Of a stretch of 64,000 nucleotides of DNA, positions 51,201-64,000 are shown piece by piece. The stretch lies in assembly GCA_002734065.2 (NCBI GenBank), contig NVXU02000030.1, forward strand, positions 62,001 through 126,000. The letters are read 5' to 3'. Every line of letters begins with the position of its first letter. Position 1 is the stretch's first letter. Position numbers and translations under genes: made by a program. Source of the DNA: Fluviicola sp. (GTDB taxonomy: Bacteria > Bacteroidota > Bacteroidia > Flavobacteriales_D > Crocinitomicaceae). The notes under the pieces were generated by a model that saw only the letters and a program-made list of their open reading frames with translations, did not search any database and was not told where the DNA came from.

Positions 51201-51468
51201 TCGATAGAGTCGACAAATTAGTTGTTCCATTTGGTTTTCCTGCAAGAGCATCTTTTTTTCGGTCAGCCAAATCATTTGTTAGATACCCAAAACCCATAAA
51301 ACCAATAGTCGTAAATACAGCTGCCATAAATGACATTGACGCCACACGAGAGACTACATTTCCCGTGAGGAGCAAGAAATAGCAAAACGTTAAAATTAAA
51401 GGAACTTTATATCGCCATGGATTAGCAAGTCGCATTTTCTGAGAGAAGAACTGGAAAAAAGAAATCAT
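48289..51468 (-). CDS. UbiA prenyltransferase / GT4 glycosyltransferase / SGNH hydrolase fusion
   Basis: A single 1059-codon frame with three domains. Residues 1-325 form a UbiA-type polytopic prenyltransferase with both metal motifs: NDLADRKKD (65-73) and KDFENDQISGTNTFA (198-211). Residues 342-690 form a GT-B family 4 glycosyltransferase (HFHGFDAYR, GRFVPKKSP, and the EX7E motif with E600 and E608). After a membrane helix (about 705-722) comes an SGNH hydrolase with GDS at 800-802, GND at 864-866 and DANH at 1033-1036, so Ser, Asn, Asp and His are all present. Implied topology: membrane, cytoplasm, membrane, periplasm. It could make, glycosylate and acylate or deacylate one polyprenyl-linked product. 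Confidence 0.85.
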   Translation of the reverse strand: MISFFQFFSQKMRLANPWRYKVPLILTFCYFLLLTGNVVSRVASMSFMAAVFTTIGFMGFGYLTNDLADRKKDALAGKPNGTTNLSTLSILLLIIIFLAIAFLPWFYLPMDQVSVVCIVVELVLFIIYAFPPFRLKEKGFLGVITDALYAHVVPAFLASWTFYLVGKEHYANFFWFVMALSIWQLFSGIRNILSHHYKDFENDQISGTNTFATKVGKEKVYKLMVYFFIPLEVISFLVFLTIVQFEIGFLIIVILIFLFFSWPHYRKNKSEVPTKHFTNIFLDRFYIHWFPYIVLFALAFGSYDFWWIALIHVLLFHPLIGKVIRGINTKKSKSTSEGEIQSKIAILTTNRNQYSETFIQSHIQLLNDVVVYSDGYMPTSISLNRGLTWSLSINSEIDLVQSWKDNNIKVVLAEYGPAGVEVMNLCEDASIPLVVHFHGFDAYRNDVLESYGSRYKELFRIASNIIVVSNDMKKQLLSLGCPNSKIKRITYGVDTELFSPSEANDERNGFIACGRFVPKKSPYSTISAFAKVVEIYPKAKLTFIGDGELLKSSQLLAKELKIESNISFRGVLTPLEVSIELKKHAIFVQHSILTKENDSEGTPLSLLEAAASGLAIVATKHAGIIDVIKDEESGFLVEEGDVQKMSERMIQVFEDGLLRMQLGRRARADVLKYYDQTNYIESLEKCLNEAVIPQKEESGRTIWRQRFFIFLILFLIAEIGLRMVGYKPGVIEDFYFHAGEVRYDSLLYADEVGITHIIPDKALILNGKVNKQGFFSSIEYTSESIDLVRKSGKKVIMLIGDSYTQGCCADEYSGTFAYLLNQPEEYEVLNFGIPGADPVQYRLIVEKYVPLLKPDLIVVAVYGGNDILEYDRSAKPFVPLAYPIENGPWLNSEGPIYLTEQGTFFSTFDEAKGHYFQFFSLWGDESSFFEKTIRYSVILSRPYLKLKTKLRYEEVKNQMPEKFDNPVFSMENLVSLNNFATSYKVPVLFTLIPPPSDVIANIDLHRKYDFVFGQLKYIIPSNLEIENYDGVEDANHFNNQGHQKYASFLKTLIEAKLLE

Positions 51469-51505: not shown

Positions 51506-53110
51506 ATGGATTCCATTTTAATACTCTATAAAAATAGTAACAAGATTTTACTAATTTGGTACATGATTTTAGTGACTTCATTTATTAAACACATTCAAAC
51601 TGGAAAAGGACTTCTTTTTCTGTTAGTAGTAATGATTATTGTTTGGTTATGTGGATACAACCTAATCGATGCCATAACAACAGATAGTTGGACTCGGTAT
51701 TTACGGCAACTTTTTTTCTCACGTTTCACATTAATTATTTTTCTAACTTGTCTCTTCTTTGCATATACTCCATTAATTAAAAGCTTTATTTCAGACACAA
51801 AAAAAACGGCTACAGATTTGTCTGTTTTCCGAATTCTTTTCTTTGGATTCTTTGCTATTGGATTCATTTTCAACCCTACTACAATTTCAGATCAAGTATT
51901 ACCTTTTTTAAACTTACCAGATAGCGCACAAGTTCCATTACCTTTCATGGGATGGTATCTCAAAATTATTCCAATTAATGAAACAATTGTTTCTATCGTG
52001 TCAGTTGTGTTTTACATTACCATTTTCACCTCTTTGTTTGGTGTAAAAACACGTTGGTCGATTGTTTTATTCACCCTAACTCTTTTTTATCTCTTTGCAA
52101 TTCCTAATTTTTATGGAAAGGTAAATCATAACCATCATTTAATATGGTTTCCAGCAATATTAGCCTTTAGTCCTTGTGCTGATAGATTCTCTATAGACGC
52201 CTACTTTAGAAAACGTGCAAACAATTCAATCGTTCACTCTACAAGAAGCTATTCTTTGCCTTTCTTATTAATTTGGACTTTGATAGGATTAATCTATTTT
52301 TTTCCTGGTTTTTGGAAAATGTGGACGAATGGTTTGGATTGGAGTTTAACAGATAATGTTAGAAATCAAATGTATTACAAATGGTTTGCATTGGGCGATA
52401 AAAGTTCATGGATTCCTATTTTTAGAATTGACCATTATCCTTTTCTATATAAAGCTATTGGAATTTTTACAATCATTTTTGAACTTTCATTCATCCCTCT
52501 TCTCCTCAATAAAACAACACGAAAATTAGCGATCGTGTTCGGAATAGGATTCCATATTGGAACATTGATTTTTATGAATATTTTCTTTGTTGTATTAGTT
52601 TGGTCTTATTTATCTTTTGTGAATTGGAATACTATTTCATTCCTCAGAGAACCCGATAATTCAACTGATTACAACTCTTCAAATTTTAATTTTTCAGCAG
52701 TAAAGTGGATAGGAATAATATTAATTTCTACATCTATATTTTTTGGTTTCAGCAAGTTATATAGCTGGCCATTTACAGCTTACCCAACCTTTGATGCGAT
52801 TGTTAAAGAAGACACCTATCATTTAGTGTATGTTGCTACGGCCGCAAATGGGAAAGAGTACAAACTAAGTAACTCACCACTTCATACAAAATATACTTCT
52901 CCTAGATACTGGAGCATGGAATTCACTATTATTCAATCTACCTACAAAAATGAACTTGATTCCACTTTATTGGACCACTTAACATCTGTTTTTATGAAAA
53001 AATCAAAGGAGATAACTGAAATAGACATCTATTTAGAGAAACAATCGATTGTTCCCGAAAAAAGAAACCGTTCTACATTGGAACTAATTTACTCAAAAAC
53101 ATTCAATTAA
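51506..53110 (+). CDS. HTTM-domain membrane protein (vitamin K carboxylase-like fold)
   Basis: A 534-residue polytopic membrane protein. The HTTM pattern is seen in DLSVFRILFFGFFAIGFIF, YFFPGFWKMWTNGLDWSLTDNVRNQMYYKW, FLYKAIGIFTIIFELSFIPLLL and FGIGFHIGTLIFMNIFFVVLVWSYLSFVNW, which carry the conserved His and the K/W-rich loop. The C-terminal 120 residues are soluble. HTTM proteins resemble gamma-glutamyl carboxylase and their bacterial functions are mostly unknown. The gene is divergent from the UbiA-GT4-SGNH gene and precedes two PhyH genes on the same strand. An ATG at 51563 is an alternative start. Confidence 0.75.
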   Translation: MDSILILYKNSNKILLIWYMILVTSFIKHIQTGKGLLFLLVVMIIVWLCGYNLIDAITTDSWTRYLRQLFFSRFTLIIFLTCLFFAYTPLIKSFISDTKKTATDLSVFRILFFGFFAIGFIFNPTTISDQVLPFLNLPDSAQVPLPFMGWYLKIIPINETIVSIVSVVFYITIFTSLFGVKTRWSIVLFTLTLFYLFAIPNFYGKVNHNHHLIWFPAILAFSPCADRFSIDAYFRKRANNSIVHSTRSYSLPFLLIWTLIGLIYFFPGFWKMWTNGLDWSLTDNVRNQMYYKWFALGDKSSWIPIFRIDHYPFLYKAIGIFTIIFELSFIPLLLNKTTRKLAIVFGIGFHIGTLIFMNIFFVVLVWSYLSFVNWNTISFLREPDNSTDYNSSNFNFSAVKWIGIILISTSIFFGFSKLYSWPFTAYPTFDAIVKEDTYHLVYVATAANGKEYKLSNSPLHTKYTSPRYWSMEFTIIQSTYKNELDSTLLDHLTSVFMKKSKEITEIDIYLEKQSIVPEKRNRSTLELIYSKTFN

Positions 53111-53230: not shown

Positions 53231-54286
53231 ATGCCAATTACCGTTAAAAGGAGTTACTTGAATTGGAAACCAGTCAAGCATGTTGTTTTTAAAAGTGACT
53301 CACTTGCTGAAAAAATTCACACAACAGGTTTTTCAATCTTTGATGGGCTTTCATCAGAACAATTAATGAAACTCAAGGATCTATTTAACAATGAGCATTC
53401 ATTCGATGTGAAAGAGGGCGGAATGTTTTACAGCATGTATTCAAGAGATAAAGAATATAGAAAACGTGTTCATGAAACAATCGCGGAGATATTGAAACCA
53501 ACGCTAGAAGCGCATTTCAAAGACTATAAAAATGTGGTGAATGCTTTTGTCGTAAAACTGCCTGGCGAGAAAAGTGAATTTTATGTGCATCAAGACACTA
53601 CAGCAATTGATGAGTTCCGATTTTCTCCTTTGAGTTTATGGATTCCATTGCACGAAATCACTCCGAAGAATGGCGCTTTGGCGGTAATAGAAAAAACGCA
53701 TTGGTTCTTTTCTCCCTATCGAGGAGTTTCATTTGGTTTTCCGTTTAAAAAAATCAACAATACAATTAAAAAATATTTAAAACCTGTTTACATGAAAGCA
53801 GGAGAAGTGATGTGCTTTGACAATCGAATCATTCATAATTCAATGGCAAATACGTCAGATCAACTACGAATTGCTGTTATATGTGGGATTTTTCCGAAAG
53901 AAGCCAGTTTTCAAACATGTTATCGTGCTTCAGAAGAAAACTCACCTATTGAAATGTATGCGCATGACGACAATTACATGATGGATTACCCTCATTTCTT
54001 CTACAATTGTACGGACCGACCTCATTTCGGAGAAAAAGGAAAGATTGAAAATCACCTATTCCCAGAAATGAATGCAGAAGAATTTGAAGAATTGTGTTCC
54101 CTCAATGGAATCGACATTGTGAATGAACTAGATGGAGCTGAAGCAACAACAACGAATTGTCAGTTAATTGCAGAGCCAAATGGGGTGAATCGTTTTGAAG
54201 AGGCAGATGCAGAGGTTGCTGCACTACTGAAATCAAACGCTCCGAAGTCGAAAGGATTTTTTAGTTTTCTAAAACGATCATCATGA
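53231..54286 (+). CDS. PhyH-like Fe(II)/2-oxoglutarate dioxygenase
   Basis: A 351-residue member of the phytanoyl-CoA dioxygenase family. The iron triad is H120 and D122 in YVHQDTTAIDE, and H202 in RIIHNSMANTSDQLRIAV, where R213 should bind 2-oxoglutarate. Between them SLWIPLHEITPKNGALAVIEKTHWF is the usual core. A C-terminal extension of about 60 residues ends in KGFFSFLKRSS, a basic aromatic tail shared with the other PhyH proteins here. The protein is predicted to be cytoplasmic and possibly membrane-associated through that tail. It overlaps the next gene by 4 bases. Substrate unknown. Confidence 0.85.
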   Translation: MPITVKRSYLNWKPVKHVVFKSDSLAEKIHTTGFSIFDGLSSEQLMKLKDLFNNEHSFDVKEGGMFYSMYSRDKEYRKRVHETIAEILKPTLEAHFKDYKNVVNAFVVKLPGEKSEFYVHQDTTAIDEFRFSPLSLWIPLHEITPKNGALAVIEKTHWFFSPYRGVSFGFPFKKINNTIKKYLKPVYMKAGEVMCFDNRIIHNSMANTSDQLRIAVICGIFPKEASFQTCYRASEENSPIEMYAHDDNYMMDYPHFFYNCTDRPHFGEKGKIENHLFPEMNAEEFEELCSLNGIDIVNELDGAEATTTNCQLIAEPNGVNRFEEADAEVAALLKSNAPKSKGFFSFLKRSS

Positions 54287-55170
54287 AGCCAAAAGCACTC
54301 TTCAAAAATCAAGATTTACAAGCACAAATTGACAAAAAGGGATATGTCACTCTTCCTTTTATTGGTGAAGCTGAATTAGAAGAATTACGCAAGTTTTACA
54401 ATAAAATCCATCCAAATGGCGCTCCAGAGAAGATTGATGGGATTCACATGACAACTTGGTGCGAAGACTATGAGTACAAAATGAAAATCGCGAATCGCTT
54501 ATCTGAAATATACTCTAAACCTTGCGCTGACGTTTTTGAAGATTATCGAACGCTCAATAATGTATTCATTGTTAAAGATATTGGTGAAACGCCGTTTAAA
54601 GTACATCAGGACTGGAATGTTGTTGATGAAAAGGAAAATTTTGCAATCAACGTTTGGGTTCCATTATACGACATCACAAAAAATGAAGGTGGATTGTGGG
54701 TTGTTGAAGGAAGCCATAAGATAGATCGACATGTACGAGGTTCGGCGTATCTTTTTCCGAACTACGCACCTTTCAATAGCGAATTAGAAAAAGTAGCAAA
54801 ATCGGTGAGTTTGAAAGCCGGAGAGGCAATTGTTTTTTATGTAAACATCATACACGGTTCTCCTTCTAATTACGGAGAATCTGAACGGATTGCGACTTGT
54901 TTTTCAGTTATTCCAAAGGATGCTCCTCTCAATATTTATTTTCAAAAACAGAAAGGCGATCCATTGGAAATTCATTCACCGAAAGATGATTTCGTTTATC
55001 ACTACAAACATCTTCGAACCGAAACTTTTGAACGAGCACCTACTGATTCTCCTATAGAAATACGTGAGCCTTTTGTCAACATTCCTGTTCGAAGGTCAGA
55101 ATTGGAGTCATTCTTTCCTACTAAAAAGAAAGCAAGCTTATTCAATTTATTTCGAAATAAGTCGCGATAA
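54283..55170 (+). CDS. PhyH-like Fe(II)/2-oxoglutarate dioxygenase
   Basis: A 295-residue PhyH protein. H108 and D110 lie in KVHQDWNVVDEKENF, H191 in NIIHGSPSNYGESERIA, and R202 is the expected 2-oxoglutarate ligand, 11 residues after the second His as in the other copies. The core reads NVWVPLYDITKNEGGLWVVEGSHKIDRHVRG. The tail ends SLFNLFRNKSR. It is translationally coupled to the preceding copy and convergent with the HxG pair, whose last stop is 6 bases away. All catalytic residues are present. Confidence 0.87.
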   Translation: MKPKALFKNQDLQAQIDKKGYVTLPFIGEAELEELRKFYNKIHPNGAPEKIDGIHMTTWCEDYEYKMKIANRLSEIYSKPCADVFEDYRTLNNVFIVKDIGETPFKVHQDWNVVDEKENFAINVWVPLYDITKNEGGLWVVEGSHKIDRHVRGSAYLFPNYAPFNSELEKVAKSVSLKAGEAIVFYVNIIHGSPSNYGESERIATCFSVIPKDAPLNIYFQKQKGDPLEIHSPKDDFVYHYKHLRTETFERAPTDSPIEIREPFVNIPVRRSELESFFPTKKKASLFNLFRNKSR

Positions 55171-55176
55171 AAATAA

Positions 55177-56070
55177 CTAAGACCAAATATAAATAGATTT
55201 ATCATCCTTCGCGTAAGTTAAGAACCCTCCAATTGTCCGACGTGGTTTTTCTCCTTGAGCGACTTCTACTTTGTGCCAAATCTGACCTCCGGCGAACACA
55301 ATCATATCACCAGGCCTTGGTGTAAGTTTCTTTCTAGCTAACTTCTTTTCATCTAGTAAATCAACCTCTTTCCCGTCATGCGTTACCAATATAGTGTCTC
55401 CTGATTTCCGAATTTCAGCATCGCTCCACTCTATATCATACAGCGTTAACTCTCCACCTGAAGATGAAGGAGAAAGCATTACGAAGTAACTCATTTGATC
55501 TTTAATAATTGAGATTTCTTTCATGTGCTGATAAATAAAAGGGAACTCGTTATGAAAATAATTCCCACAATGCGCCTTAAACTCTCCCTGCCCAGGGACG
55601 AGATACTTATATGTTGCTGGATTATAAATACCTTCATTTTCAGTACCTTTAGGAGGAGCAACTGGTCGTTTTCCTGATATTTTTTCTATGATTGATTTCA
55701 TTTCGCCCACAAAATCAACTCCCGATAATTGTGGAAATTTCTCCCATCTAACTTCAGCTTCTTTGTGAAAATTGATCAGTGAGTCTTTCGAATTCCCACT
55801 CTTTTGTTCAATTAACGAAAACGGTGCTGGGTGCTGAATCATTCCATTGTTAACTTCAAATTTCTCACTTGCATCAAGGTTATCATAATGCTTCATCAAT
55901 TTTTCTACTGCGTCAAGTGTCACAGCATTTCTAATCAAAAAACCATCAATATTTCGCGCCATGATATCATCTAAGCCATTCGGATAATTATCCAATTCAC
56001 TCACATCGATTTCAAGCATTTTATAAATGTTTTTAGCTTTTTTGTGTTTTCTCCTCGTAAATAGTCCCAT
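55177..56070 (-). CDS. 2OG-Fe(II) oxygenase-like protein with HxG iron site (halogenase-type)
   Basis: A 297-residue protein of the double-stranded beta-helix, prolyl-hydroxylase-like branch. The first iron motif reads GQGEFKAHCGNYF: H167, then G169 where a hydroxylase has Asp. The second His is H266 in GGQIWHKVEV, with R278 in RRTIGGFLTY as 2-oxoglutarate ligand. SYFVMLSPSSSGGELTLYD is the standard core strand. An HxG site is what WelO5 and BesD halogenases use to make room for chloride. A nearby HNE could supply a carboxylate but is not conserved in the neighbour. The N-terminus is basic (MGLFTRRKHKKAKN). Confidence 0.78.
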   Translation of the reverse strand: MGLFTRRKHKKAKNIYKMLEIDVSELDNYPNGLDDIMARNIDGFLIRNAVTLDAVEKLMKHYDNLDASEKFEVNNGMIQHPAPFSLIEQKSGNSKDSLINFHKEAEVRWEKFPQLSGVDFVGEMKSIIEKISGKRPVAPPKGTENEGIYNPATYKYLVPGQGEFKAHCGNYFHNEFPFIYQHMKEISIIKDQMSYFVMLSPSSSGGELTLYDIEWSDAEIRKSGDTILVTHDGKEVDLLDEKKLARKKLTPRPGDMIVFAGGQIWHKVEVAQGEKPRRTIGGFLTYAKDDKSIYIWS

Positions 56071-56080
56071 ATTTATACGT

Positions 56081-56977
56081 TTATGACCACATTTTTAATG
56101 ATTTATCATCCTTCGACCTTGTCATGAAACCACCAAGTGTTAATCGCGAAACATCTCCAACGACAGCTGACACACGATGCCATAGTTCCCCTTCAGAAAA
56201 CAAAATCAAATCTCCTTGATTCGGAGCAACTTTATAGCATTTCACTTGATCTTCATCGAGTAAATTATATTCCTTTCCTTTTTTATCGATGAGTACAGAG
56301 TTTTCATTCACTAAGCGTTCTGCTTCGGACCAATCTAATCCATAAAGAATTAACTCTCCTCCTGATTGTGGCTTTTGAACAGTGACGAAATAACTTATCT
56401 GGTCGCGAATTGTACAAATCTTTGAAAGTCTATCGTAAAAAGGCTTAAATTCTTGCTGGAATGCAACTCCACAATGTGTTTTAAACTGTCCTTTTCCTGC
56501 CTCCAAATATCGAAAAGTTTGTGGAGTATAGACACCTATTTCCTCATCCCCTTTGATTAAATCAATTCTCCTTCTTCGAGAAAGAGAAGATAGAACCCTT
56601 GTTACTTTGGAATGAAAATCTACACCAAACCTCCGAGAAAATAGCTTCCATCTCTCTTCTGAATCAACTAAAGTTTCTTGAAATTTTTTATCTGATATTT
56701 GCTCTCTTGGATCAATTCCTGAAAACGCTTTTGGGTAGAGAAACATGCCTTCATCGTACTGTGTCAGCTCTTCTTGCTTTACATCACTAAAACCTGACTT
56801 CAATATTTCAACCTCATCTTTTGATAGAAAATTACGAATCAAAACTCCATCAATTTCCCGCTTTATTATAGCGTCAAGGCTATGCTTCAGCGATGACAAC
56901 TTGGAAGCATCAACTTCTAGAACTATAACCTCTCTAGTTGTCTTGTTTTTTTTCTTAGTAAAAATTTTTTTTAGCAT
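56081..56977 (-). CDS. 2OG-Fe(II) oxygenase-like protein with HxG iron site (paralogue)
   Basis: A 298-residue paralogue of the next gene downstream, with the same plan: FKTHCGVAFQQEF gives H168 and G170, GELWHRVSAVVGDVSRLTLGGF gives H267 and R278, and SYFVTVQKPQSGGELILYG is the core strand. Since HxG is retained in two divergent copies, loss of the carboxylate is unlikely to be a random defect. The N-terminus MLKKIFTKKKNKT is strongly basic. It starts 2 bases after the ABC ATPase stop, so it belongs to the exporter operon. Alternatives to halogenation include a non-standard hydroxylase or a binding protein. Confidence 0.78.
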   Translation of the reverse strand: MLKKIFTKKKNKTTREVIVLEVDASKLSSLKHSLDAIIKREIDGVLIRNFLSKDEVEILKSGFSDVKQEELTQYDEGMFLYPKAFSGIDPREQISDKKFQETLVDSEERWKLFSRRFGVDFHSKVTRVLSSLSRRRRIDLIKGDEEIGVYTPQTFRYLEAGKGQFKTHCGVAFQQEFKPFYDRLSKICTIRDQISYFVTVQKPQSGGELILYGLDWSEAERLVNENSVLIDKKGKEYNLLDEDQVKCYKVAPNQGDLILFSEGELWHRVSAVVGDVSRLTLGGFMTRSKDDKSLKMWS

Positions 56978-56979
56978 CT

Positions 56980-58188
56980 TTAATTATTCACATGATTAAT
57001 TTTCCAGTTAAGTTTTGGACGAATTACACTTCCCATTCCTCGTACTTTCACGTAATCATCATTCGGTAAAAGTTTAAATTTAGCGAGAGAATCAACTTCT
57101 TTGACAAGCTCGCGGTTTACCCCCATAAAAACTCCAATTCGATATACGCCTGCACTCAATAAATTTGGAGGTATTGAAACATCTACCTGATAATCCCCTT
57201 TATTAACGGCTTTTACTTCATAATCATTTCGAAGTCCGTAAGAGTCTAGCATAACTCGAACACCGTTCATATTTGTCAATAAAATTCCAATTTCAAAAGA
57301 ATTCTCCGCTATCATTTTTGTACAATGAAACCGAAAAACTAGTTCTGCTTCAGTTGTTAGACCCTCTGCTTCTATCGATGTTAGAAATTCGATTTCATTA
57401 ATCTTAAAGTCATCAATTTGAATCGGAAATTCAGCAAGTACAGTGAAGTACTCTTTTTCTTCAGTAGTTTCATTAAATGCAGATCGAACTTTTGCGTCTT
57501 TGTGATTCTCAATCAATTCATAATACTTATTCACAACATCTAATGGATTACCTTTATATAGTATTTTTCCATCATCCAACATTATACATCGATCACATTG
57601 TTCAACAATTAATTCCAAATGGTGGCTAACTAAAATAATTGCCGTTCCTCGCGCTTTCAGTTCTTGAATTTTTGAATAACATTTTCGTTTAAAATCTGTG
57701 TCGCCGACAGCAATAACCTCATCGAGTAATAAAATAGATATTTTTGAATGAAATGCAATCGAAAAAGCCAATCGTAAATACATCCCGCTTGAATAATGTT
57801 TTACCGGCATCTGCATGAAGTCGTGTAATCCAGAAAAATCAACAATATCGTCGTACAAGTCTTTGATTTCCTTCTTAGAATACCCTAGCAAGAGAGCACT
57901 CAAGTAGATGTTTTCTTTTCCAGACAAGTCAGCATGAAACCCCGTTCCAATATCAATAATAGATGTTAATTGACCTTCATAAGAAATCTCACCAGAACTA
58001 GGACCTGTTATCTGACTCAATACCTTGAGAAGAGTACTTTTCCCTGAACCATTTCGCCCAATTACACCAAGAACCTCACCTTTATACAATTCAAAGGAGA
58101 TATTATTAAGCGCGTAAAAAGCTTCAGCATCTTTCTGGAATTCCTTCGTTAGCGAATCAACAGTCATTATAGATTGATTTTGTTCCAT
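56980..58188 (-). CDS. O-antigen-type ABC exporter ATPase (Wzt-like) with C-terminal glycan-binding domain
   Basis: A 402-residue ATPase. Walker A is GRNGSGKST (44-52), the signature is YSSGM (132-136), Walker B is ILLLDE (152-157) and the H-loop is VSHHLE. The N-terminal 240 residues match polysaccharide exporters of the Wzt/TagH type. The last 155 residues (from about 245; INEIEFLTSIEAEGLTTEAELVFRF, GVRVMLDSYGLRND, DVSIPPNLLSAGVYRIGVFMG) form a beta-sandwich like the Wzt carbohydrate-binding domain, which reads the terminal modification of the finished chain. Its permease partner is encoded six genes upstream at the window end. Confidence 0.9.
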   Translation of the reverse strand: MEQNQSIMTVDSLTKEFQKDAEAFYALNNISFELYKGEVLGVIGRNGSGKSTLLKVLSQITGPSSGEISYEGQLTSIIDIGTGFHADLSGKENIYLSALLLGYSKKEIKDLYDDIVDFSGLHDFMQMPVKHYSSGMYLRLAFSIAFHSKISILLLDEVIAVGDTDFKRKCYSKIQELKARGTAIILVSHHLELIVEQCDRCIMLDDGKILYKGNPLDVVNKYYELIENHKDAKVRSAFNETTEEKEYFTVLAEFPIQIDDFKINEIEFLTSIEAEGLTTEAELVFRFHCTKMIAENSFEIGILLTNMNGVRVMLDSYGLRNDYEVKAVNKGDYQVDVSIPPNLLSAGVYRIGVFMGVNRELVKEVDSLAKFKLLPNDDYVKVRGMGSVIRPKLNWKINHVNN

Positions 58189-59159
58189 TACAATTCCTCT
58201 TGTTTACGATTGTGCATTTGCATGTAGAACAAATTTTGTAAAAAGTATCGACTATTTCCATATTCCAAGGCATTCCAAGGCTTGATACACGTAATCTCAA
58301 AGAAATCAACTGGGAAAACATATTCCTCAAGGTTCTCAATTTGATTGATTCCTGTGAGTTCCTGAAAATCATTTGAAATTGTCAAATTTTCAAAATCCTC
58401 CAAGGGAAAATCGATTGTTTTAACGCTCGACAAAATGTAACCTTTCTTTCTTACGAGCTTCAATACTTCGTACAAATCGGCAATGTTGTACCGATAGGCA
58501 TCGTTGATGTTTTTCACTTCTCGTTGAATGTCATCCGACAATGATTGTATTGCTGCTTCCTTGATGAACAAATCCTTGATATAAAGTTTCCCTCCAGGCT
58601 TCAACATTCCCCAAGCAGAATTAATTACTTGTTCGTGATTACTTGCATGTCCAAATGATTCTAAGAAATAGACTACATCAAAACTATCTGATTCGTAGTA
58701 TTTTTCCAACTGATGGTAATCGCCATGCGTAACGTTTACTTTTCCTTCCAACCCTTCTTCAGTAATATACTTTCTCGATTTCTCTACTTGATCCTCAGAA
58801 ATGGTGATTGCTTCTACATGAACTCCTGAATTCTTTGCGAAATACCTTGCTGGTCCACATACTCCACAACCAGCATCTAAAACGCGTTGACCTTTCTCAA
58901 ATCCGATTGTTTCAATTTGATAATCCAGAAGTTTTTTTACATCAGTAGTTCGAAAAGCCTGAATCACTTCACCATAAACTTTTAAAAAATTATTCGTTTG
59001 CTCATTATAAAAATCACCTACCTCGCGTGCCGAATGTTCGGCTTTAGATTCCATCAATGACATTTGCCTACTCGGCTGTTTCCGGAGTAAAAGAATGATT
59101 AGTACAAAGCAAGCTATCGCAAGAGCCAAGATTAACAGTATCGATATCGCTGATGTCAT
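58188..59159 (-). CDS. membrane-anchored SAM-dependent methyltransferase
   Basis: A 323-residue protein with an N-terminal membrane helix (residues 4-26) and a class I methyltransferase domain. Motif I is RVLDAGCGVCGPARYF (about 92-107), followed by VEAITISEDQVEKSRKYI, SFDVVYFLESFGHASN and AWGMLKPGGKLYIKDLF. The pattern SEDQVEKSRK with FLESFGHA is close to the sterol, tocopherol and cyclopropane-type methyltransferase group. The stop overlaps the wzt start by one base, and it follows five PhyH genes by 2 bases. A chain-capping or lipid-modifying role is plausible; the order beside wzt recalls O-antigen terminators. Confidence 0.8.
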   Translation of the reverse strand: MTSAISILLILALAIACFVLIILLLRKQPSRQMSLMESKAEHSAREVGDFYNEQTNNFLKVYGEVIQAFRTTDVKKLLDYQIETIGFEKGQRVLDAGCGVCGPARYFAKNSGVHVEAITISEDQVEKSRKYITEEGLEGKVNVTHGDYHQLEKYYESDSFDVVYFLESFGHASNHEQVINSAWGMLKPGGKLYIKDLFIKEAAIQSLSDDIQREVKNINDAYRYNIADLYEVLKLVRKKGYILSSVKTIDFPLEDFENLTISNDFQELTGINQIENLEEYVFPVDFFEITCIKPWNALEYGNSRYFLQNLFYMQMHNRKQEEL

Positions 59160-59161
59160 TG

Positions 59162-60028
59162 TTATGATTTTATTCTAAGTAACTTCTTAAAAAATCCATT
59201 TTTTTGTTCTTGTTCAACTTTCTTCTTGCCAAGATACATCTTTTCAAATTCTTCTGTCGATAAAAAACAATTTGGATGAGTGAATGAGCGCAATAAAGTT
59301 AAGCCCTTAGGTCCTGAGTCTCGATCATTTTCAAAGAAAAAGTTGGAGTGTGAAGCATATTCTTCCACTATATCTTCATTTTGTTGATAATATCTTAATT
59401 CAGCTTTCTTCGGAACAACTCCCAACACAAAAGCAAGTCGTAGTTCATCTGTTTTATTTTCTGGAGAAGAATGCCAGAGTGCATGATCATATAGCACTGC
59501 TTCGCCTTGCTTCATATTAAGTGAAGCCATATACTTATCGACTTCATTAGAAATAGAATGCAAAACTGGTGGAACATTGGGTCCTCGATATGTTTCTTGC
59601 TTTGAATGGCTACCACTAAAAATTCTCATCGCTCCATTTTTCTCATTGACATCAACTAACGGAATCCATAAATTATAGGATCGCGCTTTTTTTTCGTCTA
59701 CTAGATTCCAATCTTGATGAAGTGGTAATATACCTTTCTCTCCGGGTGCTTTCGAAATAAATGCACCTCCAAGTAATTCAATGTTCTGAAAATTTGATTC
59801 AATCCTAGAAGACAAGATAGACATTGCTTTATCACTCAGTATTTTTCGTTTCTCTTTATCTTCCAAATGAGTCGTCGCATAAAACCCTTCAGGGTTCGAT
59901 AAGTGATTCTCAAAAAAAATGCTTTTCAATGCGTTGACTTCATCATTATTTAGTAAATCAAAAGTCGCGTAACCGTCTATTTTTAAACGTTCCGTTAATT
60001 CTGCATCATGAAATTTCACCCTGTTCAT
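59162..60028 (-). CDS. PhyH-like Fe(II)/2-oxoglutarate dioxygenase
   Basis: A 288-residue PhyH protein, fifth of five consecutive copies. H104 and D106 are in LPLHQDWNLVDEKKAR, H186 in ALWHSSPENKTDELRLAF and R197 follows 11 residues later. The core is LWIPLVDVNEKNGAMRIFSGSHSKQETYRGP. The basic aromatic tail is GFFKKLLRIKS. It overlaps the upstream copy by 4 bases. All catalytic residues are intact, so a hydroxylase or related oxidase is expected; the substrate may be a sugar or lipid of the exported glycan. Confidence 0.87.
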   Translation of the reverse strand: MNRVKFHDAELTERLKIDGYATFDLLNNDEVNALKSIFFENHLSNPEGFYATTHLEDKEKRKILSDKAMSILSSRIESNFQNIELLGGAFISKAPGEKGILPLHQDWNLVDEKKARSYNLWIPLVDVNEKNGAMRIFSGSHSKQETYRGPNVPPVLHSISNEVDKYMASLNMKQGEAVLYDHALWHSSPENKTDELRLAFVLGVVPKKAELRYYQQNEDIVEEYASHSNFFFENDRDSGPKGLTLLRSFTHPNCFLSTEEFEKMYLGKKKVEQEQKNGFFKKLLRIKS

Positions 60029-60888
60029 CTTTTCTTAAATATTCGTTTAAAAAAAGACTGTTTATTTGTATTCATTAATCTATGCAGATCCTCTTCGCTC
60101 CAACTTGGTATGGAATAATCAAAGAATTGTTTACTTGTCCCCATTAATGGTCGTTTGTATATTGCTTCCATAAAATTTTCAAAACGCAAGAGAAAATCAT
60201 CCTCTTGAGCAAACTCTTCTATTTGATTTCGTTCTTTATCCCAATAATGGAATTTGAGAGATGCTTTCTGACTGATCAATCCTGTTGTAATTGCAGGACG
60301 AATATCATCCGTCATGTTTGGTTTTGAATAATGAATCGTAGCTTGATTCAATATAATAACCTCTCCTTTTTTCGCTGGAACAATTGTTAATTTTGATTTT
60401 ATTTTATCTCCCAATCCAGCAAAAGACATCGGTAACGTCGGTGCACGCAAGGCTTCATTCCATTTGTGACTTCCTTTCATCAACTCGAGTGTTCCGTTTT
60501 TTTCGTCGGTATCAGTCAGTGGAATCCACACATTAGCGGCGTAAAACTGCTGCTCGTCTACGATTGTCCAATCTTGATGCAAAGGCATTTCACTGTGCTT
60601 TCCTATTCCTTTAATCAAATATGCAGCTCCAATCAATCGATAATTAACACATTGTTTTGACAAGCTCTGACTGATTATATCAGTAATTTTGTTACTAATT
60701 TCGGTTTTCAAGTTAAAATCATCCAAATAACTTGATGAAAAGAACACACTTCCTTTTTCAGGAAAATATTCCATCCTCATTTTTGCAAGGGTATCAACTT
60801 CTTGCTCACTTAGCAAGGAGATTTTCACAAAGCCATCTTCGTCAAATTTGCGTTGAATTTCAATGTCTTCAAAAATAGGTTCTTTCAT
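60025..60888 (-). CDS. PhyH-like Fe(II)/2-oxoglutarate dioxygenase
   Basis: A 287-residue PhyH protein. H104 and D106 are in MPLHQDWTIVDEQQF, H186 in ATIHYSKPNMTDDIRPAI, R197 completes the site. The core VWIPLTDTDEKNGTLELMKGSHKW is standard. The tail SFFKRIFKKR is the most compact example of the shared C-terminal motif. ATGA overlaps of 4 bases on both sides show tight translational coupling within the array. Confidence 0.87.
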   Translation of the reverse strand: MKEPIFEDIEIQRKFDEDGFVKISLLSEQEVDTLAKMRMEYFPEKGSVFFSSSYLDDFNLKTEISNKITDIISQSLSKQCVNYRLIGAAYLIKGIGKHSEMPLHQDWTIVDEQQFYAANVWIPLTDTDEKNGTLELMKGSHKWNEALRAPTLPMSFAGLGDKIKSKLTIVPAKKGEVIILNQATIHYSKPNMTDDIRPAITTGLISQKASLKFHYWDKERNQIEEFAQEDDFLLRFENFMEAIYKRPLMGTSKQFFDYSIPSWSEEDLHRLMNTNKQSFFKRIFKKR

Positions 60889-61811
60889 GCCGTTTTTGTT
60901 GAAAAAATTCGTTTAAACCAGCTTTGTTTTTCCTGTTCAGTTTGGTTTCTAGATTTAGTCGCGATTGTTACTCCAAATTCTTGTTCTATTTGCTCGACTG
61001 TCAATTTTGGAAAATCATAGGGGAAGAACCCTAAACTCTTACCAATTGTTGGTTTACTGAAGATATTATGTCCGAAGTTTTCGAATTTCTCCAAGAAGTC
61101 GTCTTCTTGTTCAAATATTTCGATGCTGTTCCCATAGGCGTCTTTGTCCCAATAACAGATTTTAATTTTTGCATCTTTGTGTGCGACAAATGTATTGATC
61201 GTTGGACGTTCTTCATCAGACAAGTTAGGAGGAGAATTGTGGATAATACTCTGATCAAATATGATTGCTTCACCCGCTTTCAAGTAACAAGGTTGCATCA
61301 AACTCAAAACTTCATCCTTAACGTTATCATAAATATCAGGAATAGAAGAGCCGCGGTATGTTTTATAGAACCGATGACTTTTCGGTAGCACTTCAATTGC
61401 ACCATTTACTTCGTTTAAATCAACCATTGGACACCAAATATTGATTCCTGAATATTTATTCTCATCAACTAAGGTCATGTCTTGATGCATTATCAAACGA
61501 CTATCTTCTCCTGGAGCTTTCACAATAAAACTTGAAAATAAGATCTTATAATTTTTAAATAATTTCTCTATCTGTTCTTGACAAATTTCACGAATAGATC
61601 GGTTGACGTTTTCACGGTGTTCTACATTATTTGCAAATGTTGTAGTAAAGAAGCCTTTAACTCCATCAGGATAGCATGATTTATAAATCTCAACCAATTC
61701 TTCAATTTGCTTTGATGAAATAAAGGGTACAATAACAAATCCATTCTCATGAAAGTCTGCTTGTAGTTTAGGATCACTAAAAATTCCTTCTTTCTGATGA
61801 AAACTAATCAT
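60885..61811 (-). CDS. PhyH-like Fe(II)/2-oxoglutarate dioxygenase
   Basis: A 308-residue PhyH protein. H109 and D111 are in LIMHQDMTLVDENKYS (Met replaces the usual Trp after HQD), H191 in SIIHNSPPNLSDEERPTI, and R202 is the 2-oxoglutarate ligand candidate. The core reads NIWCPMVDLNEVNGAIEVLPKSHRF. The C-terminal tail is SWFKRIFSTKTA. It is coupled by 4-base overlaps to the copies on either side. Confidence 0.87.
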   Translation of the reverse strand: MISFHQKEGIFSDPKLQADFHENGFVIVPFISSKQIEELVEIYKSCYPDGVKGFFTTTFANNVEHRENVNRSIREICQEQIEKLFKNYKILFSSFIVKAPGEDSRLIMHQDMTLVDENKYSGINIWCPMVDLNEVNGAIEVLPKSHRFYKTYRGSSIPDIYDNVKDEVLSLMQPCYLKAGEAIIFDQSIIHNSPPNLSDEERPTINTFVAHKDAKIKICYWDKDAYGNSIEIFEQEDDFLEKFENFGHNIFSKPTIGKSLGFFPYDFPKLTVEQIEQEFGVTIATKSRNQTEQEKQSWFKRIFSTKTA

Positions 61812-62755
61812 GTCCTAATTATTTTAGATTGTACTTTTTTCCACCAAGATAATTCTTTTACTGGTTTTTCAAGTTGATTATTATCGTCGAAACGTGGCTG
61901 ATTCAATTTATTTCCAAATTCTTCAATCTTCATATCAAAAGGTTCGTATTTGAATGAATCAATTCTTGGTACATCTTCGGATGGCTTTTTCCAAGGGTTA
62001 AACTTCATGTAAAAATCTTTATCAACCTCCAACACTTCAACCATTGACCTGTCTTTACTTAAATCCATATGAAAATGAATTGACTTTTCTTCTTTTGGAA
62101 TAAGAATCAATTGAATTGCCAATCTTAAACCATCCGTGTGATTTGGAGAGGAGTAATGAACAATACTGTCATCTAAAACAACTGCATTACCAGCTTTCGT
62201 CTCAACGGGTTGCATATATTTATCAATAATTTCCGATTGAATATCAGCCAATTCTGATTTTATCATAGGTCCGCGAACTTCCCCATAACGTTTATGGCTT
62301 CCAGGCACAACTTCAAGCGTTCCATTATCTTTGTTACTATCTACTAAAGGACACCAAATAGAGACAGTTGAGCACTTATGCTCATCAGCAAACGCCCAAT
62401 TTTGATGCAATGGAACTTCCCCTCCATCTTCTTTCTTTCTAATAAAATTGGCAATAATTGGCTTGTAGTTATCTAGGTAATCGTCCACACGATTCGCGAA
62501 CGATTTGGTGATCATATCAAATACTTGCTGTTTGTAGTCCGTATTTTTATCAATAAAGGTGAAGTCATAAGTAATTTCCTGATTAGAACTGTATTTTTCA
62601 TCTTCTGGGCCAAGCCTTCCTCCACTTTCTTTCAAAGTATCGAAGTAATATGCTTTTAGTTTTTCAACCTCTTCATTCGTTAAAAATGGAACTTCAACAT
62701 ACCCATCTTCCTGAAAGCATTCTTCCAATTTTTGATCTTTAAATGTATTTCTCAT
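61808..62755 (-). CDS. PhyH-like protein with Asp-to-Asn change in the iron site
   Basis: A 315-residue PhyH protein counted from the ATG at 62755; a TTG three codons upstream is less likely. The motif is VPLHQNWAFADEHKC, so the triad is H117, N119 and H200 (SIVHYSSPNHTDGLRLAI, R211), with Asn where the six other copies have Asp. The core WCPLVDSNKDNGTLEVVPGSHKRYGEVRGP is otherwise normal. The protein may bind iron poorly, act as a scaffold, or carry out altered chemistry. The tail is SWWKKVQSKIIRT. It starts 9 bases after the upstream copy ends and overlaps the next by 4. Confidence 0.83.
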   Translation of the reverse strand: MRNTFKDQKLEECFQEDGYVEVPFLTNEEVEKLKAYYFDTLKESGGRLGPEDEKYSSNQEITYDFTFIDKNTDYKQQVFDMITKSFANRVDDYLDNYKPIIANFIRKKEDGGEVPLHQNWAFADEHKCSTVSIWCPLVDSNKDNGTLEVVPGSHKRYGEVRGPMIKSELADIQSEIIDKYMQPVETKAGNAVVLDDSIVHYSSPNHTDGLRLAIQLILIPKEEKSIHFHMDLSKDRSMVEVLEVDKDFYMKFNPWKKPSEDVPRIDSFKYEPFDMKIEEFGNKLNQPRFDDNNQLEKPVKELSWWKKVQSKIIRT

Positions 62756-62764
62756 GATTCTCAA

Positions 62765-63811
62765 TTATGGTCTTCCTTTCATCCTCCAACTTATCTCTCG
62801 AACTATATTCCCTACAGAATACTTTTGGAAGAATGAACGTGTATCTACCCATTTTACAGGTTCTAATTCACTTGTTTCATCTTCTTCTTTTGAGCCGTCA
62901 ATCGAGTAATTAAACAACTTTGCTAAACGTTCCATAAAAGGACGATTGTATTCAACTCCATTTATTTCCTGTACGAATGCTTCCATTTCTTCTTTTGACA
63001 AGTCAGGAACTACGCGTTCAATTTCATTTACTTTGTGCAATCCTTCTGGTGATTTTCCTTCATCAAAGATATTAGAAAGCCGTTTGTTATTGAACCATGT
63101 GTAGAAAGTTTCATCTACATTGTACTCTTCCAGTTTCCCAGATTTAGGGTTTTGGTAGAAGTGTTTTAGTTGTGCTTCACTTTGCGTGACCCCAATTCCA
63201 ACGGCAATTCTCGCTTGGTCGGATAAATTGGGGGGAGATGCGTGAATTAAACGATTATCAAAAACTAAACTTTGTCCTGCTTTCATTTCGATGATTTCAA
63301 TGAACGGGAATAATGTAAAAACATGATCAGCAAGTGGAGATTTTGATTGTGGAGAAGGGGACGATCGTTTGTGATTAAAAATTTTGTGGCTCCCTCGAAT
63401 TACTCCAAGTGCACCATTGTGTTCGGTCACATCAACCAAGGCCGTCCAAACAGTTGCTGAGCAAAATTTATCTTCATCCACAAATGTCCAATCTTGGTGA
63501 GGAGGAACAATATTCTGTAAGCCTGACTCTTTAATCACGTAGCTCGCAGTAAACGTTTGGCATTCATCCAATAATTCACTCATTTTTGGAACGAGTACTT
63601 CTTTTATTTTTGATCCAACTTCTTTTACGAGGTCTTCATTCTCATTATCAAGACTAATGTGAAATCCAGCCTCAATTTTATTGTCAAATTCTTGATTATT
63701 GTAAAAGTCAAGAAGTGAAGCTACTTCTTCTGAGTTGAGAAGAGAAAGCAACACAAATCCGTCAGTATCGAATTGATTTTGATATTCTTTATTTTTAAAA
63801 ATGTCTCTCAT
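62765..63811 (-). CDS. PhyH-like Fe(II)/2-oxoglutarate dioxygenase
   Basis: A 348-residue PhyH protein, the first of the five-copy array after the exporter permease. H105 and D107 are in VPPHQDWTFVDEDKF, H190 in RLIHASPPNLSDQARIAV, and R201 is the 2-oxoglutarate ligand candidate. A longer loop (SSPSPQSKSPLADH, near 150-163) and a C-terminal extension of about 70 residues distinguish it. The end contains RSFFQKYSVGNIVREISWRM, a longer variant of the aromatic basic tail. It begins 9 bases after the permease stop. Confidence 0.87.
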   Translation of the reverse strand: MRDIFKNKEYQNQFDTDGFVLLSLLNSEEVASLLDFYNNQEFDNKIEAGFHISLDNENEDLVKEVGSKIKEVLVPKMSELLDECQTFTASYVIKESGLQNIVPPHQDWTFVDEDKFCSATVWTALVDVTEHNGALGVIRGSHKIFNHKRSSPSPQSKSPLADHVFTLFPFIEIIEMKAGQSLVFDNRLIHASPPNLSDQARIAVGIGVTQSEAQLKHFYQNPKSGKLEEYNVDETFYTWFNNKRLSNIFDEGKSPEGLHKVNEIERVVPDLSKEEMEAFVQEINGVEYNRPFMERLAKLFNYSIDGSKEEDETSELEPVKWVDTRSFFQKYSVGNIVREISWRMKGRP

Positions 63812-63820
63812 AATGGGAGT

Positions 63821-64000
63821 TTAAAGATAATCAACTAAATTTCGTTCTATATTCTTAAAGGTACGAATTCCAATAAATAATAAGATAATAATTGGCAAAA
63901 ATGACAAACAATATGACCAATTAAACGGAATATTGAATAATAATGAGCGTAAAAAATCTATAGCCGTAGCAATTGGGTTTATGTAGTAGATATAGTCACG
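63821..64000 (-). CDS. O-antigen-type ABC exporter permease (Wzm-like), C-terminal 59 residues only
   Basis: The window ends inside this gene. The visible part reads RDYIYYINPIATAIDFLRSL, then a hydrophobic helix (CLSFLPIIILLFIGIRTF) and the end KNIERNLVDYL. This is the typical finish of ABC-2 polysaccharide permeases (NP-x-x-x-x-DFxR, a last membrane helix and FKxxERxLxDxL). It is the membrane partner expected for the Wzt-like ATPase at 56980-58188. Being first in the transcript, it suggests the operon promoter lies beyond position 64000. Confidence 0.8.
   Translation of the reverse strand, partial: RDYIYYINPIATAIDFLRSLLFNIPFNWSYCLSFLPIIILLFIGIRTFKNIERNLVDYL

Follow-up and report, generated by a model that had tools for sequence, protein, structure and literature searches.

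Organization of the locus

The stretch of DNA analyzed here, referred to as the window, comprises 64,000 nucleotides (positions 62001-126000) of contig NVXU02000030.1 of Fluviicola sp. (GenBank assembly GCA_002734065.2), a genome of 3.49 Mb in 62 contigs; NCBI assigns Fluviicola to the Crocinitomicaceae (Bacteroidota). At its right-hand end lies an array of nine genes for iron/2-oxoglutarate (Fe/2OG) oxygenase-like proteins around one ATP-binding cassette (ABC) exporter, as the first-pass annotation had described; seven of these are PhyH proteins (PF05721) and two are WelO5-type proteins (PF22814). The minus-strand operon has the order GT2 - Wzm - PhyH7 - PhyH6 - PhyH5 - PhyH4 - PhyH3 - MT - Wzt - WelB - WelA, in which GT2 is a glycosyltransferase (GT), MT is a methyltransferase, and Wzm and Wzt are the permease and ATPase of the exporter. 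Only the 3' part of the Wzm gene (63821..64000; PF01061, 4.4e-15) is inside the window. The gene runs on to contig position 126636 (locus L008, 1822-2637) and is overlapped by four bases by the glycosyltransferase gene on the same strand (L008, 2634-3674). It is followed by PhyH7 (62765..63811), PhyH6 (61808..62764), PhyH5 (60885..61811), PhyH4 (60025..60888), PhyH3 (59162..60028), MT (58188..59159), Wzt (56980..58188), WelB (56081..56977), and WelA (55177..56070). Two further PhyH genes, PhyH1 (53231..54286) and PhyH2 (54283..55170), are located on the plus strand and converge on the operon, which also agrees with the initial description. The nine junctions from the permease gene to WelA, the last of the two genes with an HxG motif, comprise gaps of 9, 0, 2, 2, and 10 bases and overlaps of 4, 4, 4, and 1 bases; the earlier upper limit of 10 bases per gap holds, and the statement that most junctions overlap was slightly overstated (four of nine).

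Seven diverged PhyH oxygenases

All seven PhyH proteins score above the Pfam cut-off (PhyH1, 5.5e-15; PhyH2, 8.6e-19; PhyH3, 4.6e-19; PhyH6, 7.5e-23; likewise PhyH4, PhyH5, and PhyH7) and are the sole PhyH matches in the genome at E ≤ 0.001. In six of them the metal-binding triad begins with HQD; PhyH6 has HQN instead, as it does in all six genomes whose sequence covers the motif, which indicates that the change is maintained under selection. A distant PhyH protein of the related genome G046 (locus L081, 9850-10731) has HQN as well.

The copies were thought at first to be specialized enzymes rather than fresh duplicates, and both sequence divergence and selection support this. The other six copies share 24-30% identity with the first copy. 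A tree of 65 PhyH domains resolves the seven positions into seven separate clades of orthologues from the genus, with a support of at least 99/96 (e.g., 100/100 for PhyH2 and PhyH7 and 100/99 for PhyH5), except for PhyH4 (100/98 with the sequence from G097, 100/92 without it). Recent duplication of PhyH genes is ruled out by this identity range together with the one clade per position. Two-domain proteins were split into halves for the tree, and several long branches may be joined falsely, including that of a PhyH-methyltransferase fusion of G097, which groups with PhyH3 (94/86). PhyH1, at one end of the array, has orthologues in G171, G114, G107, G099, and G162.

All nine Fe/2OG genes are under purifying selection. 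The ratio of nonsynonymous to synonymous substitution rates (dN/dS) is 0.03-0.14 for array genes with unsaturated synonymous sites, including PhyH6 (0.04) and the WelO5 genes; saturated comparisons yielded no value.

A profile search against the PDB placed PHYHD1, MysH, SnoK, 6zyk, and EvdO2 nearest to the PhyH proteins, then phytanoyl-CoA dioxygenase, AviO1, and EvdMO1, and after these CytC3 and SyrB2. The profile and fold matches taken together include SnoK, SnoN, EvdO2, AviO1, and EvdMO1, and HygX appears in the fold list. Several of these relatives act on sugars. For PhyH3, the best single-sequence match is EvdO2, a weak match (E = 2e-4), but PHYHD1, MysH, and SnoK top the profile search. 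The predicted structure of PhyH6 (mean predicted local distance difference test score, pLDDT, 82) matches the whole PhyH fold and singles out no substrate.

The C-terminal end of the PhyH proteins, e.g., PhyH1, and the N-terminal end of the WelO5-type proteins, e.g., WelA, are each formed by a short basic segment that contains Phe or Trp. Such a tail is present in 9 of 9 Fe/2OG proteins, compared with 12 of the 53 remaining proteins in the region (Fisher p = 1.4e-5, a descriptive value, as the criterion was chosen after the tails had been noticed and the glycan region itself accounts for 7 of these 12). In the PhyH6 model the tail is a short helix of low confidence. Such tails fit enzymes that would be held at the membrane, the site of lipid-linked glycan assembly.

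Two WelO5-family proteins as predicted halogenases

WelA and WelB match PF22814 over profile positions 2-277 of 277, with 209.5 bits (E = 9.6e-62) and 188.4 bits (E = 2.6e-55), respectively, against a cut-off of 27 bits. The strong PDB matches of these HxG proteins are WelO5-type structures only, found for WelA by phmmer at 8e-36 to 2e-32; the HxG motif, the distal His, and the Arg all align. The HCG motif of the window protein aligns with HVG of WelO5, and WelA and WelB were also aligned with each other. Selection on both genes is indicated by dN/dS values of 0.06 and 0.14, each from one comparison.

At the position that is Asp or Glu in hydroxylases, Fe/2OG halogenases usually carry Ala or Gly; WelO5 was the first halogenase of its class found to use a free substrate, and WelO5 enzymes target unactivated carbons of such substrates (partial text of PMC8407142). 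In the array loci, 10 of 11 WelO5-family homologues have HCG and one, the WelB counterpart of G162, has HCE. This HCE protein (locus L026, 13620-14510) is a clear PF22814 member (E = 4.3e-51) and adjoins an HCG sister, and the loci therefore seem to contain natural halogenase-type and hydroxylase-type sisters. WelA and WelB are predicted halogenases, and chlorination is probably their reaction. The first-pass annotation had only considered halogenation as a possible addition to hydroxylation; the match of both proteins to the WelO5 family strengthens that suggestion. To our knowledge, Fe/2OG halogenases come from natural-product pathways only.

It is possible, if doubtful, that WelA and WelB are instead oxygenases in which the carboxylate ligand has been lost, or partners without catalytic activity. 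Halide use cannot be shown by sequence alone, the WelO5 match is distant (E = 8e-36 by phmmer), and the HQN of PhyH6 illustrates that altered triads do occur at this locus. However, the alignment of HxG, the distal His, and the Arg with WelO5 argues against this explanation, as do the low dN/dS values (again one comparison each) and the natural HCE sister in G162, which fits the Gly position as a switch between hydroxylation and halogenation (PMC8407142, in the part available).

In G091, the WelO5 gene and PhyH6 are each broken into two frames (locus L032, 8124-9071 and 17647-18569), for which decay or an assembly error may be responsible. Spread of WelA by plasmids is unsupported, since no match at E ≤ 1e-5 was found among 72,556 plasmid records.

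The exporter and the methyltransferase

The Wzt protein consists of an ABC ATPase (PF00005) and an additional C-terminal domain (residues about 245-402). The best PDB matches of the ATPase part are 6amx, 8dku, 6m96, 7k2t, and TagH, of which 7K2T is named as WzmWzt in the accessible part of PMC9445017. In characterized systems, the C-domain of Wzt binds the chemically modified end of the chain and thereby certifies the chain for export (PMC9445017, partial text). The methyltransferase matches Methyltransf_11 and CMAS, has MitM as its best PDB match (3e-17), and carries an N-terminal hydrophobic stretch as judged by eye.

Wzm homologues are present in 75 of the 200 genomes of the family (E ≤ 1e-30). 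Among the 30 best loci, a PhyH gene is within 1.5 kb of Wzm in nine, all of which represent this same array, and PhyH arrays are thus exceptional among Wzm loci. The Fluviicola sp. genome has four Wzy_C matches, a family common to O-antigen ligases and polymerases.

A conserved core, a variable cassette, and co-variation of Wzt

New at this locus is the combination of a conserved core (Wzm, PhyH genes, and methyltransferase) with a variable end cassette (WelO5, extra PhyH, and sometimes a sulfotransferase), with Wzt varying along with the cassette. From GT2 to the methyltransferase, the proteins of other array genomes share 51-97% identity with those of the window, the lowest values being those of G162. 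Within this stretch, G114 is without PhyH6 and G162 without the GT2 gene; it is past the stretch that gene content changes.

Two types of cassette were distinguished. Type I contains PhyH1 and PhyH2, accompanied by WelA and WelB in G000 (the genome studied here) and G171, by WelA and a sulfotransferase in G114, and by WelA, a sulfotransferase, adenosine 5'-phosphosulfate (APS) kinase, and CysD/CysN-like genes in G107, in which the cassette is spread over three contigs and its adjacency is presumed; in G099 it occurs without WelO5. The labels CysD and CysN interpret PAPS_reduct and GTP_EFTU matches next to the APS kinase. Type II, in G131, G091, and G185 (on two contigs in the latter), contains a WelO5 protein, a PhyH, a two-domain PhyH, and another PhyH. 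The gene content of G162 is that of type I, but its locus is diverged (Wzm about 51% identical). Radical S-adenosylmethionine (SAM)/SPASM genes are located near type II cassettes and also in the type I genome G099.

It was then assessed which genes follow this division, by ranking the type I/II split against alternative splits of the genomes. With eight genomes (G162 and G033 left out), the type I/II split ranks first of 56 for both Wzt domains, a rank that is at best 1 in 56. Identity of the nucleotide-binding domain is 70-88% within types and 58-67% between them; for the C-domain the values are 40-73% and 28-38%. By the same test, the split was not seen in the methyltransferase, Wzm, PhyH3, PhyH4, PhyH5, PhyH7, GT2, KASIII, or an ArnC-like glycosyltransferase, some tests covering six or seven genomes (20 or 35 splits) where broken contigs lacked the gene. 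In a repeat with G162 as type I (G033 was excluded throughout), Wzt still came first of 84 splits, at best 1 in 84, with C-domain identities of 32-73% within and 28-37% between types, and the eight other genes retested did not separate the types. Wzt therefore goes with the cassette. The binding of modified chain ends by Wzt C-domains in characterized systems (PMC9445017, partial text) gives this co-variation a simple meaning.

Several observations were made on the cassettes themselves. In G107, the sulfotransferase, APS kinase, and CysD-like genes stand beside the WelO5 gene and the CysN-like gene beside PhyH2 (loci L036 and L070). The two-domain PhyH proteins of type II cassettes in G131, G091, and G185 (e.g., locus L028, 16292-18157) each have a single HQ[DN] motif, and the motif of the second domain differs. 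Carbamoyltransferase genes were found near the array in G114 (locus L030, 6394-8298) and G091 (locus L033, 11364-13229).

Distribution among relatives

The array is present in 9 of the 34 genomes of the genus, i.e., in the eight that have the methyltransferase used as a core marker and in G107, where it lies on broken contigs without the MT gene. That the array is due to chance or an artefact is ruled out by an operon common to nine genomes and by the low dN/dS values. Within the 200 genomes of the family, eight have WelO5-family proteins (the Fluviicola sp. genome included); all eight belong to the same genus and carry the array, so that WelO5 accompanies the array in 8 of 9 cases and is absent from the remaining 191 genomes. 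Among 395 genomes of the phylum, only the genome studied here has a strong full-length WelO5 match, and four others have partial or weak ones, two of them above the cut-off.

The PhyH profile finds 14 of the 200 family genomes at E ≤ 1e-15, namely the nine array genomes and G033, G046, G097, G168, and G060. In line with the initial assignment of these enzymes to a glycan exporter, 11 of the 14 (the nine array genomes, G033, and G046) have a PhyH gene and a Wzm homologue in one locus; the exceptions are G097, a contig fragment, and G168 and G060, in which no glycan exporter was found in the 3.6 kb around PhyH. In G033, which belongs to another genus, the order is sugar aminotransferase - Wzm - SPASM radical SAM - PhyH - two-domain PhyH - PhyH - Wzt - methyltransferase - GT, with the nearest PhyH slightly beyond 1.5 kb of Wzm. 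G046 has one PhyH gene about 9 kb from Wzm, in a stretch where a Wzt homologue was not found, and another elsewhere in the genome. After Wzm, where array genomes carry PhyH genes, G046 encodes a 711-aa P450-domain protein (locus L082, 352-2487). G097, also of another genus, contributes a 3.7 kb contig with part of PhyH5, PhyH4, and the fusion of a PhyH3-like domain to MT (609 aa; locus L083, 1153-2982); none of the exporter genes is on this fragment.

Beyond the family, the PhyH array search was positive in two genomes of the phylum out of 395 (E ≤ 1e-20, at most five candidates scored per genome), namely the genome studied here and G255, and in 9 of 349 genomes of the order at E ≤ 1e-30, all of the latter within the same family. 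The match in G255, from the same class but outside the family, is a PhyH pair (locus L093, 13372-15096) near a gene for a 2743-aa protein and not in a glycan export locus.

A proposed oxidative tailoring line for an exported surface glycan

Gene content and order, conservation, catalytic motifs, selection, and Wzt-cassette co-variation were observed directly. For the function of the array, about even confidence is given to an ABC-transporter-dependent surface-glycan locus with an oxidative, probably halogenating tailoring line, in which the finished chain end is read by Wzt. Glycosyltransferases would assemble a lipid-linked glycan at the inner face of the membrane, and the core enzymes, i.e., the methyltransferase and five PhyH proteins with their basic-aromatic tails, would methylate and oxidize it. 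The variable set, here two predicted WelO5-type halogenases and two PhyH proteins, may then finish the chain end as a cap, after which the C-domain of Wzt would read this end and Wzm would export the chain. The earlier proposal of stepwise hydroxylation before export is supported as far as oxidative tailoring of the Wzm/Wzt cargo is concerned, by conservation in nine genomes, the PhyH-methyltransferase fusion, and the Wzt-cassette co-variation; for the substrate, which it had left between glycan and lipid, a free lipid is less probable than a glycan. A more specific version, offered tentatively, holds that the product is a chlorinated and multiply oxidized (hydroxylated or oxidatively bridged) surface polysaccharide, that a halogenated end written by WelO5 is the export signal read by Wzt, and that writer and reader are exchanged as a cassette, which would switch between halogenated, hydroxylated, and sulfated ends.

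The surroundings provide a surface-sugar setting. A neighboring aminotransferase matches WecE above the cut-off and a neighboring glycosyltransferase is ArnC-like, below the cut-off; KASIII, GNAT, further glycosyltransferases, and a UDP-Glc/GDP-Man dehydrogenase are encoded nearby. The sulfotransferase and APS kinase of the variable parts and the nearby carbamoyltransferases fit decoration of an exported chain.

Several points weigh against a halogenating, Wzt-read glycan line. The PhyH matches also cover ectoine, leucine, and proline hydroxylases and the halogenases SyrB2 and CytC3, and neither substrate nor reaction is fixed by them. The dN/dS values of WelA, WelB, and, where unsaturated, PhyH1 and PhyH2 come from one comparison each, and in G099 no WelO5 gene accompanies the array. 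The C-domain of Wzt scores 15.9 bits against a Wzt_C cut-off of 30.4 (five of eight homologues reach E ≤ 10, with 1.9e-6 as the best value), and the protein is thus called Wzt-like rather than a proven cap-reading Wzt. This domain was judged by profile searches, the predicted model being too weak (pLDDT 58.5, with a beta-rich C-domain); three of its four PDB matches are Wzt-type (6o14, 8dku, and 7k2t; E = 0.61-0.91), of which even that to 6o14 (0.61) is not significant, and a ribosomal protein scores alike (0.88). The C-domain of G162 is equally distant from both types (32-38%), and mere adjacency of cassette and Wzt could explain the co-variation. Lastly, a second Wzm homologue, 28-35% identical, is present in six array genomes, so that the array is not necessarily dedicated to the main O-antigen.

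An unlikely alternative is that the substrate is a lipid or glycolipid, with PhyH and WelO5 proteins hydroxylating and chlorinating an acyl or prenyl chain, some relatives adding sulfate as in chlorosulfolipids, and the ABC transporter flipping the product out. WelO5 enzymes use unactivated carbons of free substrates (partial text of PMC8407142), KASIII and a UbiA-GT fusion are encoded nearby, G114 has a sulfotransferase, and G107 has a sulfotransferase, APS kinase, and PAPS_reduct-domain (CysD-like) protein on one contig and a CysN-like gene on another; a lipid substrate is possible above all in such sulfotransferase-bearing relatives. However, the glycosyltransferases, WecE, and the Wzt-like ATPase with its extra C-domain suit a glycan, the tightly packed operon contains no acyl carrier protein or polyketide gene, and KASIII sits in a neighboring block that also occurs without the PhyH array (G046). 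Still less probable is a secreted, orthosomycin-like oligosaccharide or specialized metabolite, with oxidative rings or bridges made by PhyH and export by a dedicated ABC pump: EvdO2 is the closest PDB sequence of PhyH3, EvdMO1, AviO1, HygX, and SnoK are among the profile or fold matches, and the G097 fusion resembles the methyltransferase-oxidase fusion EvdMO1 (cited in PMC10338323, partial text), but EvdO2 matches weakly, the exporter belongs to the O-antigen or teichoic-acid type, the neighbors are surface-polysaccharide genes, and no resistance gene or assembly-line enzyme was noticed, though no search was aimed at them. For the surface-glycan line itself, the parallel between the G097 fusion and EvdMO1 allows oxidative cyclization instead of plain hydroxylation.

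Relation to known systems

The array is an elaborate form of an already known kind of locus, that of ABC-exported surface glycans, and its line of oxidation and probable halogenation is unusual. It resembles the Wzm/Wzt O-antigen export systems of Aquifex aeolicus and E. coli O9a, in which the cap at the chain end is recognized, in its permease, its ATPase with an extra C-terminal domain, and the methyltransferase of the operon (PMC9445017, in the part available). It differs from these in a C-domain below the Wzt_C cut-off, in nine oxygenase- or halogenase-type genes that accompany the transporter, and in a Wzt that varies with the cassette. WelO5 and AmbO5, carrier-protein-independent Fe/2OG halogenases of hapalindole-type alkaloid pathways in cyanobacteria, share the full-length PF22814 domain, HxG, the distal His, and the Arg with WelA and WelB, whereas the proteins described here are from Bacteroidota, are paired inside a Wzm/Wzt glycan operon, have a basic N-terminal tail, and have an HCE sister in a relative. 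The orthosomycin oxygenases EvdO2, AviO1, and HygX, the fusion EvdMO1, and SnoK and SnoN act on sugar-containing substrates. They have the PhyH fold in common with the array enzymes, and a methyltransferase-oxygenase fusion is found in G097 as well; in contrast, identity in fold alignments is 15-23% and the context here is that of a surface glycan.

The first-pass annotation knew of no described system of this composition, which holds for the array in the literature searched, but a single PhyH gene in a lipopolysaccharide (LPS) cluster with wzt and wzm had been published, namely XAC3597 (bdp11) of Xanthomonas (PMC3130047). That locus is alike in having a PhyH gene at an ABC-type LPS locus; the available part of the paper describes one PhyH, mentions no WelO5-type protein, and places XAC3597 outside the seven bdp genes linked to LPS synthesis. 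In the accessible part of a table on a Serratia island, PhyH is listed near a nolO-type carbamoyltransferase and a GDSL protein (PMC9964261). From these two cases, PhyH in glycan loci was already known. A search of the open-access literature found no report of WelO5-type halogenases in glycan loci, of a PhyH array of this size, or of a halogenated surface glycan.

A conserved WelO5 pair within an operon for surface-glycan export leads to the prediction of a halogenated surface glycan, which, if experimentally confirmed, would be an unusual kind of surface sugar. The co-variation of Wzt and cassette offers a testable model in which export specificity follows chain-end chemistry, what decides between hydroxylation and halogenation could be examined in the naturally occurring HCG/HCE sisters and the conserved HQN PhyH, and the locus is a source of many diverged candidate glycan-oxidizing enzymes.

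Neighboring genes and genomic context

Between 41273 and 51468, the minus strand encodes a UbiA-GT4-GDSL fusion, an NAD epimerase, glycosyltransferases, a UDP-Glc/GDP-Man dehydrogenase, and a tetratricopeptide repeat-type protein, so classified by eye. These genes are present in G171 and G114 and partly in G091. The fusion, a 1059-aa protein at 48289-51468 that joins UbiA, GT4, and GDSL-type domains, is kept beside the array in relatives. An HTTM membrane protein (PF05090) is encoded on the plus strand at 51506..53110 and is a neighbor common to G171, G114, and G099. A foreign island is not indicated by base composition, as the GC content gives no clear signal (0.357 in the array against 0.359 in the window; 0.333 and 0.328 in the neighboring glycan genes). 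The flanks to the right of loci L008, L027, L029, and L088 vary by genome, as judged by eye, and the glycan locus seems to be located at different chromosomal places.

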